Below, piece after piece: positions 6,860 to 14,180 of a stretch of 32,826 bases of DNA. The first letter of the stretch is position 1. Each line of letters starts with the position of its first letter. The position numbers and the translations under genes were made by a program. The stretch comes from Acidobacteriaceae bacterium (GTDB taxonomy: Bacteria > Acidobacteriota > Terriglobia > Terriglobales > Acidobacteriaceae): NCBI GenBank assembly GCA_003152695.1, contig PMAT01000114.1:25299-58124 (forward strand). The letters run 5' to 3'. The notes under the pieces were generated by a model. It searched no databases and was not told the origin of the DNA. It saw only the letters and a program-made list of their open reading frames with translations.

Positions 6860-7404
6860 AGGTATCCCAAGGTCCTTTCCAAAATCGGCCATCCAGTAGC
6901 CATGATGTCTTGCAGTACCGGACTCTTTAAGTGCTTTCTGCCGACTAGACCAATCCACCGGTTCCTAGAGCTGAAATCCTACCACTCCAGCAAACGCCCC
7001 GCCGCTTCCTGCTCCTGAACATGCGGAAGGCAAGCATGGCGCCGGCGGCAACCAGGCCAATTCCGACGGCGACTTTCTTCAAGCTTGCCGCATTGCATGC
7101 AGGGCGAGTGTTCGCACCCGCGATGTGCTCCGGACGGAAGCCATTCCCCACCACTCGCCCGAGCAGATCTTGCACGCCGAGAATGTTCACGGCGACCTTC
7201 AGTTGCCACGGCGCCTTCGCCGGACCGGGATTCTGGAAGATTCGCGCGAAAAGTTTATGGGCTTGGACCTGCAAAAATTGCGTGGCGCGGGTGGGAAACT
7301 CGCGCCGCCGCTAGACGCATTCCTACTAACGGGAAGCCCGTTTTGGATCCCTTCCCTTACTCGAAAATTCCCTGCAACGGGCACGGCGATTGGGACATCT
7401 AAAC
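6860..7404. other. Long non-coding or weakly coding stretch upstream of dnaK
   Basis: About 545 bp separate the methyltransferase start and the dnaK control region. Apart from the doubtful ORF at 6945-7274 I see no gene, tRNA or array. The promoter of the methyltransferase must lie at its left end, but I cannot place it. Confidence 0.5.
6945..7274 (-). CDS. Doubtful small ORF with one possible membrane segment
   Basis: This is a weak candidate of up to 109 aa from a TTG codon; no ATG start or good Shine-Dalgarno site was found. The only protein-like feature is a hydrophobic stretch ending in basic residues (KKVAVGIGLVAAGAMLAF then RMFRSRKRR), which would make a single membrane anchor. I do not recognise a family. 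It could be a decayed gene or chance reading of GC-rich DNA. Confidence 0.2.
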   Translation of the reverse strand: MQVQAHKLFARIFQNPGPAKAPWQLKVAVNILGVQDLLGRVVGNGFRPEHIAGANTRPACNAASLKKVAVGIGLVAAGAMLAFRMFRSRKRRGVCWSGRISALGTGGLV

Positions 7405-7425
7405 CTTGACAACGATTCACTCAAG
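7405..7425 (+). promoter_or_regulatory. HAIR-type operator (predicted HspR binding site)
   Basis: CTTGACA (7405-7411), 7 nt, then ACTCAAG (7419-7425). The published HspR target HAIR is CTTGAGT-N7-ACTCAAG. The right half matches 7 of 7 and the left half 5 of 7 with the exact N7 spacer. An hspR gene ends the downstream locus. The site covers the -35 hexamer and most of the -35/-10 spacer, so repressor binding would exclude RNA polymerase. Confidence 0.8.
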
Positions 7426-7434
7426 TTCTATAGT
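7406..7434 (+). promoter_or_regulatory. Sigma70-type promoter of dnaK
   Basis: A consensus -35 TTGACA (7406-7411), a 17-nt spacer, and a -10 TATAGT (7429-7434) with one mismatch to TATAAT. Transcription would start near 7441, leaving a ~79-nt leader before the dnaK ATG. The leader contains a small hairpin, GCAGT-TTT-ACTGC, at 7458-7470. No CIRCE element is seen. Confidence 0.85.
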
Positions 7435-7504
7435 CGGTTTGTTGTGAGACTTGAGAAGCAGTTTTACTGCAATTATTATCAGCAACTTACAAGCTAATTA
7501 AGCC

Positions 7505-7510
7505 AGGAGG
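7505..7510 (+). promoter_or_regulatory. Shine-Dalgarno site of dnaK
   Basis: AGGAGG ends 9 nt before ATG 7520. It abuts the alternative GTG at 7511, so the GTG cannot be the start; this decides the ATG. Confidence 0.85.
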
Positions 7511-7519
7511 GTGGCTGCA

Positions 7520-9448
<1,929 letters not shown>

Positions 9449-9475
9449 CTAGCAGCTAGCAATTGGCAGCTAGTT
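9449..9475. repeat. Heptad array after dnaK
   Basis: CTAGCAG, CTAGCAA, TTGGCAG, CTAG units begin right after the dnaK TAA codon. This is a short member of the heptad family found at other gene ends. Confidence 0.65.
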
Positions 9476-9485
9476 TTTCGAGTAT

Positions 9486-9503
9486 GGGGCGCGCAAGCGC
9501 CCC
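9486..9503 (+). terminator. GNRA-tetraloop hairpin downstream of dnaK
   Basis: A perfect 7-bp stem GGGGCGC / GCGCCCC closes a GCAA tetraloop 38 nt after the dnaK stop. No U-tract follows, so it is not a standard intrinsic terminator. It may instead stabilise the dnaK 3' end or mark an mRNA processing point between dnaK and the downstream genes. Confidence 0.4.
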
Positions 9504-9536
9504 TGCTCACAGGAGTTCGTGAGCGGCCATGGAACG

Positions 9537-9663
9537 TGTCATCCTGAGCGAGGACTCGATTAAAAGATCGCGTCCGAGTCGAAGGACCCCTATAGCGGGG
9601 CAAATATTTTCGCAGCGATAGGGGCCCCTCGACTCCTCGCTGCGCTCGTCGCTCGGGATGACA
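9537..9663. repeat. Dispersed repeat, second copy of the TGTCATCCTGAGCG family
   Basis: It begins TGTCATCCTGAGCG (9537-9550) and ends CGCTCGGGATGACA, so the terminal inverted repeats have one mismatch. It shares the CGAAGGACCCCTATAGC and CTCGACTCCTCGC blocks with the 2111-2293 copy but is 127 bp. It fills most of the 312-bp gap between dnaK and the next small gene. Confidence 0.85.
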
Positions 9664-9760
9664 ACTCAACGAGGGTCGTAGCGGTCGAAGGCAGCGTTGG
9701 CCTCCGACAACCGATCTCTTGGTTCTGCGAAAAGCGAACAGCGAAAGGCGTGTATTAAAC

Positions 9761-9946
9761 GTGCGATTTGAAGTGAACGGTCAGTCCTACATGTTAAGTT
9801 TCAACAACGACGACGGACGGTGGTACTTGATCACCGCCGGCGCCGACGGCCGGATGAAAGCCATTCCGGTAATCAGCGATGAATTTGGTTTTGTCCCGCG
9901 CGACGTCATTCCGATGGGCGACGGCGGACAGGCAAGCATTAACTGA
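9761..9946 (+). CDS. Small hypothetical protein (61 aa) in the dnaK-dnaJ interval
   Basis: I do not recognise a named family. From GTG 9761 the product is 61 aa: [20 protein letters not shown], then [20 protein letters not shown] and [20 protein letters not shown]. It looks like a compact beta-rich single domain without Cys, signal peptide or membrane segment. The even composition and clean end argue for a real gene. The frame is open upstream to a TTG at 9719, but that part ([13 protein letters not shown]) looks non-native. A GAAAGG lies 13 nt before the GTG, a little far. It is followed 13 bp later by the 275-aa gene, so the two may be co-transcribed. A stress role is only implied by position. 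Confidence 0.65.
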
Positions 9947-9959
9947 GCAGGAGAGAAGA

Positions 9960-10787
9960 ATGGGTGAGCCGCTCGATAGAACAAACCGCGTGTTCGTCCA
10001 GTTGACCACATTTGATAAGGCGCTACCCGCTCTTGAAGATGTCATTATTGAGTATTCAGAGGGGTCTATAGTTGGTCGAGTTAGGGATGGATCCTATCGA
10101 TCACGAACTAGCGTCAGGAACTCGGGTGGCCAACTGAGATGCTCCAATCCTGCGTGTAGACGGGGTGGCTACGAATTGGACTTCGATATTCACGACATGG
10201 TTCGCAATAAGCTGGTCAGCAAGAGATTTGTGAAACACTGTCCCGGAGACGAGGGATCTCCGAAGGGGCGCCGACCCGGGCGTACTTGTCTCAACTCGAT
10301 GGATGGACGTATCACGCTCATCTATAAGCCAGAGCTTGTTCCGGAACGCATCAAGATTAAGGATCGCCTGACACGGATCGCTTTCGAAAAATGTAGGGGA
10401 TGCTCTGACTACGTGCCGCTCGTTCCTCTGCAAGAAGCAGGCCGCTTCGGTTGCGGGGAGCACATATTTGAACTCTTGCCTGATGGAAAGTTAAAGGTTT
10501 TGAAGGCTGGATCTCACTGGTGGCCGAAACAGGACGAAATACTGGATGCAGTGAAGACTCAAGCCACTGTCGAACTCGAGTGCTTATTATTGTCACGTGA
10601 GGATATCGACACCTTCATTGGCGGGTCCGCATCACCGGAAACCAAAGAGCTAGTCGAGCGCTGCCTGGAAGGCGAAATTCCCGTGCTCGCCAAAGCGGAT
10701 GGCGCGTATGAACGATTGTCATCGGTGGGTGGCGCAGCCAGACTAGAGCGACTGAAACCTGAAACGATTCGGCGAATCTGCGCCTAA
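9960..10787 (+). CDS. Cysteine-rich protein of unknown function inside the heat-shock locus
   Basis: I do not recognise this 275-aa protein. It starts at ATG 9960, six nt after an AGGAGA; the open frame upstream overlaps the preceding gene and is ignored. Cysteines cluster as C61-x4-C66, C94 and C110, then C145-x2-C148 and C165. This suggests one or two structural zinc sites (RCSNPAC, KHCPGDEG, KCRGCSDY, RFGCGEH). No catalytic motif, signal peptide or membrane segment is evident. Codon use is visibly more A/T-tolerant than in dnaK and dnaJ (TTATTATTG, ATA and AGA codons occur), hinting at later acquisition. It stops 12 nt before dnaJ, so it is probably co-transcribed with it. A link to protein quality control is inference from position only. 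Confidence 0.75.
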   Translation: MGEPLDRTNRVFVQLTTFDKALPALEDVIIEYSEGSIVGRVRDGSYRSRTSVRNSGGQLRCSNPACRRGGYELDFDIHDMVRNKLVSKRFVKHCPGDEGSPKGRRPGRTCLNSMDGRITLIYKPELVPERIKIKDRLTRIAFEKCRGCSDYVPLVPLQEAGRFGCGEHIFELLPDGKLKVLKAGSHWWPKQDEILDAVKTQATVELECLLLSREDIDTFIGGSASPETKELVERCLEGEIPVLAKADGAYERLSSVGGAARLERLKPETIRRICA

Positions 10788-10799
10788 GCGACCTCCGTC

Positions 10800-12038
10800 A
10801 TGCCAACCACGCCCAACAAAGACAAAGACTACTACGGCATCCTCGGGGTCAAGAAGACTGCCTCGGCGGACGACATCCGCAAGGCGTTTCGCAAGTTGGC
10901 GCGCAAGTATCACCCCGACGTGAATCCCGGCGACAAGTCTGCCGAGGAGAAGTTCAAGACGCTCTCCGAGGCCAACGACGTCCTCAGCGATCCCAAGAAG
11001 CGCAAGATCTACGACCAGGTTGGGTTCTACTCCGACAACATCGACGCGGCGACGGCGGAAGCCTACGCGCGCGGCGGTGGCCAGGCAGCAAGCCCCTTCG
11101 GTGGCGGCGCGGGCGGAGGCGGAACCCGCACCTATACCCAGGAAGTTCCGTTCGACTTCGGCGGCTTCGACTTCAATGACTACGTTGAGGGCGCGGGTGC
11201 GGCCGGCCGCAAAGGCGGCGGTGGCGGATTCCGCGACATCTTCTCCGGCATGTTCGGTGGCGGCCGCGAGGCGCCGATGACGCGGCCCGAGGCGGGCGAG
11301 GATCTCGAATACCAGGTGAACGTCGGCTTCTGGCAGGCGATCAAGGGCACCGAGATGCAGCTCACCATTCCCCGCCGCGATTTGTGCACCAACTGCCACG
11401 GCCAGGGCTTTCTTGAGCGCCCCGGCCAGTGCCCCGAGTGCCACGGTAAGGGACAGATCACGCAGAAGAGCGGCAGCATGAAATTTAACGTGGTGTGCCC
11501 GCGCTGCGGCGGCAGCGGCAAGGACCGCACCGTGTGCCCGGTTTGCCACGGTGACGGCCGCATCGAGCACAGTGACGTGCTGAAGGTCCGCATCAAACCG
11601 GGAACGCGCGACGGCCAGCGCATCCGCCTGCCGGGCCGCGGCAACGCCGGGACCATGGGCGCACCCGCGGGCGATCTCTACATCATCGTGCGGGTGGGCG
11701 AGCATCCGGTGTTCAAGCGCGAGGGGGACGACATTCATCTCACTGTGCCGGCGAGCGTCAGCGAAGCCGCGCTGGGCGCCAAGATCGAGGTGCCGACCAT
11801 CGATGGCCGGGCGCTGCTGAAGATTCCGCCGGGCACGCAATCCGGGCAAAAGCTGCGCCTGCGGGAAAAAGGCGTTCCTTCGGCGGTCAAGGAGGGCGCA
11901 CGCGGCGACGAGATTGTCGAAATCAAGCTGGTGCCTCCCAAGGTCAGCGACGAGCGCTCGAAGGAAATCTTGCGCGAGCTGGCAAAGCTGAATCCCGAAG
12001 ATCCGCGGGAGCAATTATGGAAGCAAATCGGCAGTTAG
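10800..12038 (+). CDS. dnaJ: Chaperone protein DnaJ (Hsp40)
   Basis: Type I Hsp40 co-chaperone that delivers substrates to DnaK and stimulates its ATPase. The product is 412 aa. The J-domain carries the essential HPD at residues 38-40 ([11 protein letters not shown]). A long Gly/Phe/Ala-rich linker follows (about 85-160, including AGGGGTRTY and [17 protein letters not shown]). The zinc region has all four CxxCxGxG repeats: [32 protein letters not shown]. The two beta-barrel substrate domains complete it ([19 protein letters not shown] is the second). There is no clear Shine-Dalgarno site; translation may be coupled to the gene 12 nt upstream. The stop codon TAG is part of the heptad array that follows. 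hspR comes next. Confidence 0.97.
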
Positions 12039-12103
12039 CATTTAGCACTCAGCATTTGGCAGTTCGGTCTTGGCCAATTGCTAAGTGCTAACTGCTGAGT
12101 GCC
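12030..12103. repeat. Inverted heptad element between dnaJ and hspR
   Basis: The left arm starts at 12030 (GGCAGTTAGCATTTAGC...) and the right arm is at about 12072-12103 (GGCCAATTGCTAAGTGC...TGAGTGCC). They are imperfect inverted repeats around a ~9-bp core, so the RNA could form a long hairpin. The dnaJ stop codon (12036-12038) is inside the left arm. The element lies within a presumed transcript between dnaJ and hspR and could attenuate hspR expression. Confidence 0.8.
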
Positions 12104-12118
12104 GCCTCGGAGAGCATT

Positions 12119-12511
12119 ATGGCCAAGCGCAAGAAACAAGGCGCGTACATGATCAGCGCGGTGGCGGAGATGTACGACATCCATCCGCAGACGTTGCGCC
12201 TGTATGAACGCGAAGGCCTGCTGAAGCCGTCGCGCACCGAAGGCAACACGCGCCTCTATACCGACGAAGATATCGAGCGCCTGGAACTGATCCTGTCGCT
12301 GGCGCGCGACCTGGGAGTGAACATCTCGGGCATCGCCATCATTCTGCAAATGCGCGAGCGCATGGACGAAATGCAGCGCCAGATGGCGGGCTTCGTCAGC
12401 TACGTGCGCAACGAGGTGATGGCGCGCGCGCAAAACGCCGATCCCAGCCGCGGGGCCCTGGTGCCGCTGCGGCGCGGCATCGTCATCAAGCCGGAGAAGA
12501 AGAAACAGTAG
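12119..12511 (+). CDS. hspR: HspR-type MerR-family heat-shock repressor
   Basis: Transcriptional repressor of the MerR fold that binds HAIR operators and represses dnaK-type operons, with DnaK often acting as co-repressor. The product is 130 aa. The winged helix-turn-helix is at about residues 10-55: AYMISAVAEMYDIHPQTLRL then YEREGLLKPSRTEGNTRLYT. The QTLRxYExxGLxxPxR signature is diagnostic of HspR within MerR proteins. An amphipathic coiled-coil helix for dimerisation follows (RERMDEMQRQMAGF), then a basic tail (VIKPEKKKQ). There are no metal-binding Cys. A CGGAGAG lies just before the ATG. Its position after dnaK and dnaJ, and the HAIR element at 7405-7425, support autogenous control. Confidence 0.92.
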   Translation: MAKRKKQGAYMISAVAEMYDIHPQTLRLYEREGLLKPSRTEGNTRLYTDEDIERLELILSLARDLGVNISGIAIILQMRERMDEMQRQMAGFVSYVRNEVMARAQNADPSRGALVPLRRGIVIKPEKKKQ

Positions 12512-12536
12512 CCAGTTGTCAGTAGTCAGTGGTCAA
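12506..12536. repeat. Short heptad array at the hspR stop codon
   Basis: CAGTAGC, CAGTTGT, CAGTAGT, CAGTGGT are 7-bp units. The first contains the hspR TAG stop codon (12509-12511). Confidence 0.65.
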
Positions 12537-12575
12537 ACGCCTGCTCTACCGAATCGCAGGCGGCCCACTGCACTG

Positions 12576-14180
12576 TCACAACAGCCCGTACTTGACAACC
12601 TGGTTCTCGGCCCCGACGTAGACGCTTCCGTCCGCGATGGTCGGGACGGTGAACTTCACGGCCAGCCCCACGCGGTCGCGGTTTGGGTTCTGCTCGGAGT
12701 TGTACAGCTCGGTCCCCAGGTTGGTAGCGTCGTAGGCGCGCAATACCGCGTTGCCTCCTCCATAGGTGTCGTTCTCAATGATCCAGACGATTCCATTGTT
12801 TGTGCCATTGGACGAGACCGACGGAGTGGAGCCAGGAAAGTTGAAGTACTCCGGAGAGGCGGAGGTGGAACCGGTGGAAAGCTGCTGCGCGTGAGGATCG
12901 AAGGCGAAAGCTCTCAGGTGATCGTTGGAGCCGCCAAAATAAGCCGTGTTGTTCCAGAACGCGGGAGCGCCCCAAATGCCGCCAATCGCGTACGGGATGG
13001 TTTGCACGATCTGGCTGTCGTTGCCCGCGTGGAAGTGTCCCATATTGTCTCGGTTCACCAGATCGATAGTGCCTTCTTTGCCGACCTGTATCAGCAGGTG
13101 GGGATAGGGCGTACCCGGCTGATCGGGAAGAAGCAGGGCGCCGCCGGAGCCGAAGTCGGAGTCGTTCTGATCCAAGGTGTGCTGGTTCCAGGGAGTGAAA
13201 TAGTCGCGCAGAGAGAATGATCCGCCGGCGCTCAGCCAAGCCAGGCGGAGAACGCTGTCCCCGAAATCTGTGCCTGCGTCGAAGTGACCGTTGCCGGTCG
13301 CAGCATAGATCGATCCCCCGGAATCAGCTGCCGGACCGGCGCCGCCGCCCCAGAAGCCGCCTTCGTAACCATTCGGGGTGTCCACATAAAGGCCGGTACG
13401 AGCCAGATTCGATTCGCTGAACGACATCACATAGCCGTGATAACTGCCGAGGTCGCAATGCGAGGCCCAGGCAATGACGACCTGTCCCCTCAGCACCAGC
13501 AACGCCGAACGCTGCCCTTCCACCAGCGGGTCAAAAGTGAGAATGCCCCCGACGGAGCCGGTACCGTTGCCCGGTGACGTGGCGGTAATGCGAACCGGCG
13601 CCAGTTTGTCTTGGCCCGTCTTGATGTCGAGTGCATGCAAGGTCTGATAGAACGAAGTGATGTGGGTTACGGTGTCATACTGTTTCGTCTTGGCAACCAG
13701 GTACATAGTACCGCTGGTGGCATCGATTGCCGGGGTCCCGCTGATGCCAATCTCGGGGACCATGTCGCCACAATTCACGTCGCCGCTGGAGACGGGACTG
13801 ATCACGTAGCGGAATCCAAGCGAGGCAAGAAGATTGGTGTGCCAAAGTTGCTGTCCACTGGTCACGTCGAAGGCATAAACCTGATCGTGCTCGGTGGCGA
13901 TGAACAACACGTTGTGCGAGGTCCCGCCAATCGTGAGGCCCGGCACGTAGAGCGGCTGAGCATAAACGAAGCCCTGCACCGCAAACGTCGCGCGCTTACC
14001 GAACGATTGCGTCCTTACATTCGACACAGTAAGGACCGTTTCCTGCGAGTTGGAACCCGAGCGGTAATTGTCGTTGTGATACGTGGGGACAGCAACCTGC
14101 GCCATCACGACGGTAGAACTTAGGAACAACCACGCGGCCAAGCAGCCACAGCGCAATACACCGGAACACATGTTCTTCAT
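12576..14180 (-). CDS. Secreted PQQ-like beta-propeller protein
   Basis: Predicted exported beta-propeller of the PQQ-like/quinoprotein-repeat type, 534 aa. A signal peptide is visible (CLAAWLFLSSTVVMAQ, cut after about residue 28). The mature part starts VAVPTYHNDNYRSGSN, a pattern I associate with large secreted acidobacterial proteins. Blade-like repeats recur: VLFIATEHDQVYAFDVTSG, then YAATGNGHFD, AYFGGSNDHLRAFAFD and GSVYVGAENQVVKYGLL. I see no dehydrogenase active-site signature, so enzymatic activity is not claimed; it may bind ligands or act as a scaffold. The start is ATG 14180 with AGGAGA 11 nt upstream; an open stretch of 67 codons upstream is non-native. The TPR gene lies upstream on the same strand. 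Confidence 0.8.
   Translation of the reverse strand: MKNMCSGVLRCGCLAAWLFLSSTVVMAQVAVPTYHNDNYRSGSNSQETVLTVSNVRTQSFGKRATFAVQGFVYAQPLYVPGLTIGGTSHNVLFIATEHDQVYAFDVTSGQQLWHTNLLASLGFRYVISPVSSGDVNCGDMVPEIGISGTPAIDATSGTMYLVAKTKQYDTVTHITSFYQTLHALDIKTGQDKLAPVRITATSPGNGTGSVGGILTFDPLVEGQRSALLVLRGQVVIAWASHCDLGSYHGYVMSFSESNLARTGLYVDTPNGYEGGFWGGGAGPAADSGGSIYAATGNGHFDAGTDFGDSVLRLAWLSAGGSFSLRDYFTPWNQHTLDQNDSDFGSGGALLLPDQPGTPYPHLLIQVGKEGTIDLVNRDNMGHFHAGNDSQIVQTIPYAIGGIWGAPAFWNNTAYFGGSNDHLRAFAFDPHAQQLSTGSTSASPEYFNFPGSTPSVSSNGTNNGIVWIIENDTYGGGNAVLRAYDATNLGTELYNSEQNPNRDRVGLAVKFTVPTIADGSVYVGAENQVVKYGLL

Follow-up and report, generated by a model that had tools for sequence, protein, structure and literature searches.

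The HspR heat-shock switch is known mainly from actinobacteria, Deinococcus and epsilonproteobacteria. According to the available text on Streptomyces coelicolor, the in vivo targets of HspR include dnaK, clpB and lon, and an earlier consensus drawn from the clpB, lon and dnaK sites is given as TTGAGY-N7-ACTCAA, together with a later and looser one (PMC2687793). A HAIR probe from Mycobacterium tuberculosis reads CTTGAGC-GGGGTGC-ACTCATC, and in mycobacteria HspR is described as being released by heat, with DnaK as its co-repressor (PMC10415612). Repression by HspR through HAIR-like sites is also reported for Helicobacter pylori (PMC6102357) and Campylobacter jejuni (PMC7464140), and in Corynebacterium glutamicum a dnaK promoter of the SigA type is believed to be under HAIR control (PMC10012870). 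The Bifidobacterium dnaK site, in the part of its description available, has TTGAG. Among the matches listed in a search of mostly open literature, no title dealt with HspR in Acidobacteriota.

The locus analysed here belongs to an Acidobacteriaceae bacterium and lies in a 32,826-nt stretch of DNA, hereafter the window. Positions 7405-7434 of its forward strand precede dnaK (7520-9448, forward strand; TIGR02350, 994.7 bits, cut-off 822.55), and they are very probably a housekeeping, sigma70-type dnaK promoter on which an HspR operator (HAIR) is superimposed, so that repressor and polymerase would compete there. The sequence of 7405-7425 is CTTGACAACGATTCACTCAAG, which divides into CTTGACA-ACGATTC-ACTCAAG and is followed by TTC and TATAGT. 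This inverted repeat agrees with the HAIR consensus CTTGAGT-N7-ACTCAAG at 12 of 14 positions and with exact spacing, as an earlier note on this DNA had claimed, and the two mismatches are the innermost bases of the left half. The predicted left half-site (CTTGACA, 7405-7411) contains a -35 hexamer, TTGACA (7406-7411), that matches the sigma70 consensus at six of six positions, and the right half-site (ACTCAAG, 7419-7425) falls in the promoter spacer. A -10 hexamer, TATAGT (7429-7434; five of six), stands 17 bp past the -35 and 3 nt past the operator, for a total of 11 of 12 consensus positions. All four elements are on the forward strand, the half-sites assigned by sequence match and conservation and the hexamers by promoter scan and conservation; the dnaK ATG at 7520 is 94 bp past the end of the inverted repeat. 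The earlier note's further points, that the left half holds the -35 with TATAGT at 17 bp and that operator and promoter share bases, are thereby borne out, and the arrangement is conserved in relatives.

In the mechanism that we propose, the left half-site would act as the -35, the right half-site would fill the spacer, and three further bases would give the -10 its 17-bp distance. In a cell at normal temperature, polymerase would be excluded by an HspR dimer sitting over the -35 and the spacer; under heat or misfolding HspR would leave, opening a near-consensus promoter for the transcription of dnaK. Both repression by HspR and its release on heating are carried over to 7405-7434 by homology with the systems described above. 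The same fused element would act upstream of clpB, and lon would be served by a symmetric TTGAG[TC] form near its start codon. One stretch of DNA thus seems to satisfy both repressor and polymerase.

Taken by itself, the window does not make the site unusual: it holds two HAIR matches with at most three mismatches, a number equalled in 21 of 100 shuffles, and the promoter scan of 7000-12800 returned 2 sites against 1.3 expected. Significance drawn from the window alone was judged insufficient; it is conservation in relatives that settles the reality of the element. Across the 4.5 Mb genome there are 12 distinct sites with at most two mismatches to the HAIR consensus, several of them inside coding frames, and from this count about 0.0003 such sites would be expected within 120 bp upstream of one preselected gene. 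A perfect HAIR is expected about 0.02 times by chance in the genome. One perfect CTTGAGT-N7-ACTCAAG was seen just 5′ of an HNH-endonuclease-like gene (L002 1501-1521; G000:C8:121826-121846), with Vsr-like and cytosine-methyltransferase-like frames as neighbours (named by eye). This site, beside a restriction/repair-like cluster, was not accepted as a regulon member, and neither was a one-mismatch HAIR inside a coding frame (L006; C77:47676).

Eighty loci from named relatives were gathered by HspR similarity, 42 of which had a dnaK start and enough upstream DNA, and the window brought the set to 43. Every one of these 43 dnaK upstreams contains TTGACA-N7-[AG]CTCA, so that the alignment of relatives suggested as a check in the earlier note finds the half-sites conserved. 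The search pattern fixed TTGAC and CTCA and left the sixth base free, and this base is A in all 43. A TA that starts a -10 at 17 bp follows in 33; the operator stands without a -10 at that distance in the other ten (L047, L058, L072, L084, L085, L087, L088, L096, L098 and L100), a group to which Paracidobacterium acidisoli (L096) belongs and which is the chief finding against taking TTGACA for a -35 in every case. By eye, a hexamer starting with TAT can be seen at 23 bp in L047, L085, L087 and L088. A second set comprised 56 genomes from organisms partly shared with the named set. It showed the core in 51, plus G018. Of the 51 cores, 50 have CA as their inner bases and one has CT. The dnaK site is off by one or two bases in G053, G059 and G060, and in G058, which has weak HspR matches only, TTGACA is present and the right half is missing.

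A wider comparison across the phylum links the operator to its putative repressor. HspR was detected in 97 of 119 genomes and dnaK in 116, and 80 dnaK upstreams were searched for the core TTGA-N9-[AG]CTCA, one mismatch being tolerated. The core was present in 52 of 62 HspR-bearing genomes and in 3 of 18 that lack HspR (Fisher p 2.5e-7), and perfect cores were present in 38 of 62 and 1 of 18, respectively (Fisher 2.3e-5), these values being guides and not strict probabilities because the genomes are related. Shuffled upstreams gave the core in about 5 of 62 and 0.7 of 18. The HAIR operator therefore co-occurs with HspR and is rare where HspR is absent. The exceptions run both ways. The core at dnaK is missing, with two or more mismatches, in ten of the 62 HspR genomes (G073, G078, G101, G116, G117, G118, G131, G143, G159 and G174). 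G145 has the operator at dnaK and no detected HspR, an absence that may be explained by the contig end towards which its dnaK points; and G016, a 100% complete genome outside the 80-upstream count with no HspR at E 1e-12, has kept TTGACA-N7-ACTCA. At positions outside the search core, 47 of the 52 sites from HspR genomes carry CA, and 40 have TAnnnT with at least four of six consensus bases at exactly 17 bp, the next most frequent distances being 14 bp (11 sites) and 19 bp (10 sites).

Searched as a whole, the fused pattern behaves as a marker of the regulon. TTGACA-N7-RCTCA-N5-TAnnnT was found 64 times, in 40 of the 61 genomes searched and never more than twice in any one, against none for the reversed control; the full pattern is not present in the other 21 relatives. 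Fifty-eight of the 64 matches lie in front of one of two genes, no more than 400 bp upstream of dnaK in 35 cases and no more than 1.7 kb upstream of clpB in 23; the remaining six are unassigned. In the genome of the window the clpB site reads TTGACA-ATATCGC-ACTCATA-TTT-TATGCT and is separated by 275 bp from the clpB match that follows. The core was found at 15 of 30 clpB loci, with inner bases CA in 13, CT in one and TA in one and a TA at 17 bp in all 15; at the other 15 loci it was not seen within the stretch read. In the 15 relatives that have the core, the site is located about 520-880 bp before clpB, a gap taken to be the space for one small gene, a putative hsp20.

The lon gene offers a comparison in which the two inner bases of the left half are different. 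In the genome of the window the lon upstream contains CTTGAGC-GTGATTG-ACTCAAG, 7 bases ahead of the lon start codon. This is one of the 12 genomic sites with at most two mismatches and, besides the one at dnaK, a clear heat-shock case among them; dnaK, clpB and lon of the same genome each have a HAIR-type site upstream. Scoring was possible for 39 of 44 lon upstreams and not for the other five: the full core is present in 23 of the 30 scored in the organism's own family, and in none of the nine scored outside it was a core found within one mismatch. The inner bases of the 23 lon cores are GT in 16, GC in six, TA in one and CA in none, such that TTGAG[TC] is found at 22 of 23 lon core sites, as against TTGACA at 50 of 51 dnaK and 13 of 15 clpB sites. 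By eye, no more than about 10 bases separate the end of most lon operators from a start codon, and these operators do not fall on a -35. The lon sites differ from the dnaK sites at exactly the two bases that a -35 demands, and this supports the idea that the left-half mismatches serve the -35.

The flank of the operator is likewise shared between dnaK and lon. Directly 5′ of the operator in the window stands CATCTAAA (7396-7403, forward strand), a similar form of which occurs at lon. CATC plus an A within 13 nt was found at 28 of 34 own-family dnaK core sites; by eye, CATC precedes the operator at 21 of 23 lon core sites, and at one of 15 clpB core sites (G031), where 10-12 nt were visible. 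At dnaK, and at lon in loci such as L132-L152, CATC is followed by an A-rich stretch 5′ of the operator. The flank could possibly be an extra contact for HspR, or an A-rich extension as in the Bifidobacterium HAIR consensus.

The same inner bases might instead belong to the recognition sequence of acidobacterial HspR, with no concession to a -35 at all, a view that we consider unlikely but worth keeping in sight. The ten of 43 named dnaK upstreams in which TTGACA occurs without a -10 at 17 bp are what one would cite in its favour: in that clade TTGACA may not be a -35, and the proposal that CA serves the -35 is weakened for that clade. Yet a repressor that required CA is hard to reconcile with the own-family lon operators, 22 of 23 of which have TTGAG[TC] and none of which has CA, and a -10 at 17 bp does accompany most TTGACA sites, 40 of 52. 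The earlier note's explanation of the GT-to-CA mismatches, that they are there for the -35, holds in the main: it is supported by lon and weakened by those ten upstreams.

We also put forward a tentative extension, to which we would give rather less than an even chance. Acidobacterial HspR may read two classes of operator: dnaK and hsp20/clpB would have the asymmetric class, TTGACA-N7-ACTCA fused to a promoter whose -10 stands at 17 bp, and lon the symmetric class, TTGAG[TC]-N7-ACTCAAG, close to its start codon. The CA dictated by the promoter would lower the affinity of HspR, and chaperones would for that reason be released before the protease on warming. If this were true, the order of release would be built in, encoded by two bases and conserved through much of the phylum.

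A different question is whether dnaK transcription starts mainly from the fused promoter. A second promoter-like match, TTGAGA-17-TATTAT (7451-7479, forward strand), agrees with the consensus at 10 of 12 positions and could in principle supply the main dnaK start, but this is improbable, given that, among the near relatives looked at, its TTGAGA is seen in L022 and L024 but not in L025, and that the conservation of 7406-7434 reaches much further. The dnaK leader also contains a terminator-like stem at 7458-7470; the scan that picked it up gave 2 such sites against 6.2 expected.

Three further accounts fare worse. The promoter might be the real element and the right half-site a chance resemblance, with HspR acting elsewhere: TTGACA and TATAGT would suffice as a good promoter and the window by itself lends the site no significance, but such a coincidence is very hard to credit when the right half is kept phylum-wide at a fixed distance and the core is as rare without HspR as the counts above show (3 of 18 against 52 of 62). 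MerR-type activators work on spacers of 19-20 bp, and HspR, as a member of the MerR family, might be imagined to twist an overlong spacer and so to activate dnaK; the spacer here, however, is already the optimal 17 bp and the HspR proteins studied in other bacteria repress in the accounts available, which leaves this idea with very little to recommend it. That an RpoH-type alternative heat-shock sigma factor reads the promoter, as is often the case for the dnaK genes of proteobacteria, is scarcely credible with hexamers and a 17-bp spacer of the sigma70 type and with a best RpoH-model match in the genome of 65.1 bits against a cut-off of 323.1.

Other routes of heat-shock control were considered for the genome as a whole. 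RpoH control of dnaK was rejected, since no match in the genome reaches the model cut-off, and control by CIRCE/HrcA was rejected as well, there being no CIRCE at dnaK. Three sites in the genome match CIRCE, TTAGCACTC-N9-GAGTGCTAA, with at most three mismatches, none of them at dnaK; a perfect copy lies at a groES-like gene and a two-mismatch copy at an hrcA-like gene (genes named by eye). With CIRCE at these genes and not at dnaK, the genome seems to divide its heat-shock genes between HrcA and HspR. At the groES-like gene (L391 1501-1527 and 1563-1583) the perfect CIRCE is accompanied, 35 bp away, by a HAIR-like ATGAGT-N7-ACTCAT, and double control of this gene by HrcA and HspR, as in Campylobacter, is possible.

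Downstream of dnaK, on the same strand, follow an ORF without a known family (9960-10787), dnaJ (10800-12038; profile match) and hspR (12119-12511), which encodes a MerR-family heat-shock repressor. The earlier note had placed hspR five genes downstream; it is the third ORF after dnaK. The HspR protein matches MerR_1, and its NF047375 score of 105 bits is exactly the cut-off of 105; its identification is also supported by the dnaK-dnaJ neighbourhood, which is common to the loci of many relatives. The ORF at 9960-10787 has several Cys pairs and a low GC content (52.5%). It looks like a recent insertion, as it has no tblastn match in the loci of 80 relatives and the corresponding stretch is missing in the close loci L022 and L024.

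No full-core operator was found before hspR in 78 upstreams or before dnaJ in 55; one-mismatch cores numbered 3 and 5, respectively, against 3 and 1 in single shuffles. With no full-core operator directly before hspR, a feedback loop, which would put hspR under the control of its own product, could work only if transcripts begun at the dnaK promoter ran on for about 4.7 kb, through the ORF at 9960-10787 and dnaJ. No terminator-like site turned up in a simple scan of the DNA from the dnaK end to hspR. The distance from dnaJ to hspR was measured in 40 loci and amounts to 2-5 kb in 22 of them. Between dnaJ and hspR (12031-12102) we observed imperfect inverted repeats of TTAGCA/TGCTAA-like words, with a 29-nt repeat just before hspR; similar degenerate repeats were seen by eye after dnaK, after hspR and before clpB.

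Compared with the described systems, the acidobacterial element is close to that of S. coelicolor, with which it has in common, as far as the available text goes, the repressor family, the half-site spacing, the three target genes and the right half ACTCAA. It departs from the S. coelicolor consensus TTGAGY in that dnaK and clpB mostly have TTGACA, lon having TTGAGY. Three repeats are reported for S. coelicolor in the available passages (PMC6102357, PMC7464140), whereas one is described for the Acidobacteriaceae dnaK site. The M. tuberculosis probe, as quoted, has the same geometry and the left half TTGAGC, not TTGACA. The overlap that we propose resembles that at the Pcbp and Pclp promoters of C. 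jejuni, where the HspR footprint overlaps the core promoter; the accessible portion of that report describes extended operators and extra low-affinity sites but not a shared TTGACA (PMC7464140). In C. glutamicum the available account names two promoters, P1dnaK and P2dnaK, one of them read by stress sigma factors (PMC10012870), in contrast to the one widely conserved sigma70-type promoter seen here.

Overall, the HAIR operator with its spacing, and dnaK, clpB and lon as its targets, were already described in Streptomyces, and HspR footprints over core promoters in Campylobacter, in the portions of those reports available. What appears to be new, within the mostly open literature searched, is the fixed fusion of TTGACA and a 17-bp spacer to the operator across much of the Acidobacteriota, together with the split from the lon form. 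The HspR switch is thereby extended to a large and little-cultured phylum, with dnaK, clpB and lon named as its likely targets, and the split between TTGACA and TTGAG[TC] represents a natural experiment on the trade-off between operator and promoter constraints. The element is more general than the earlier note could show, and it is soundly described as a variation on a known control system.
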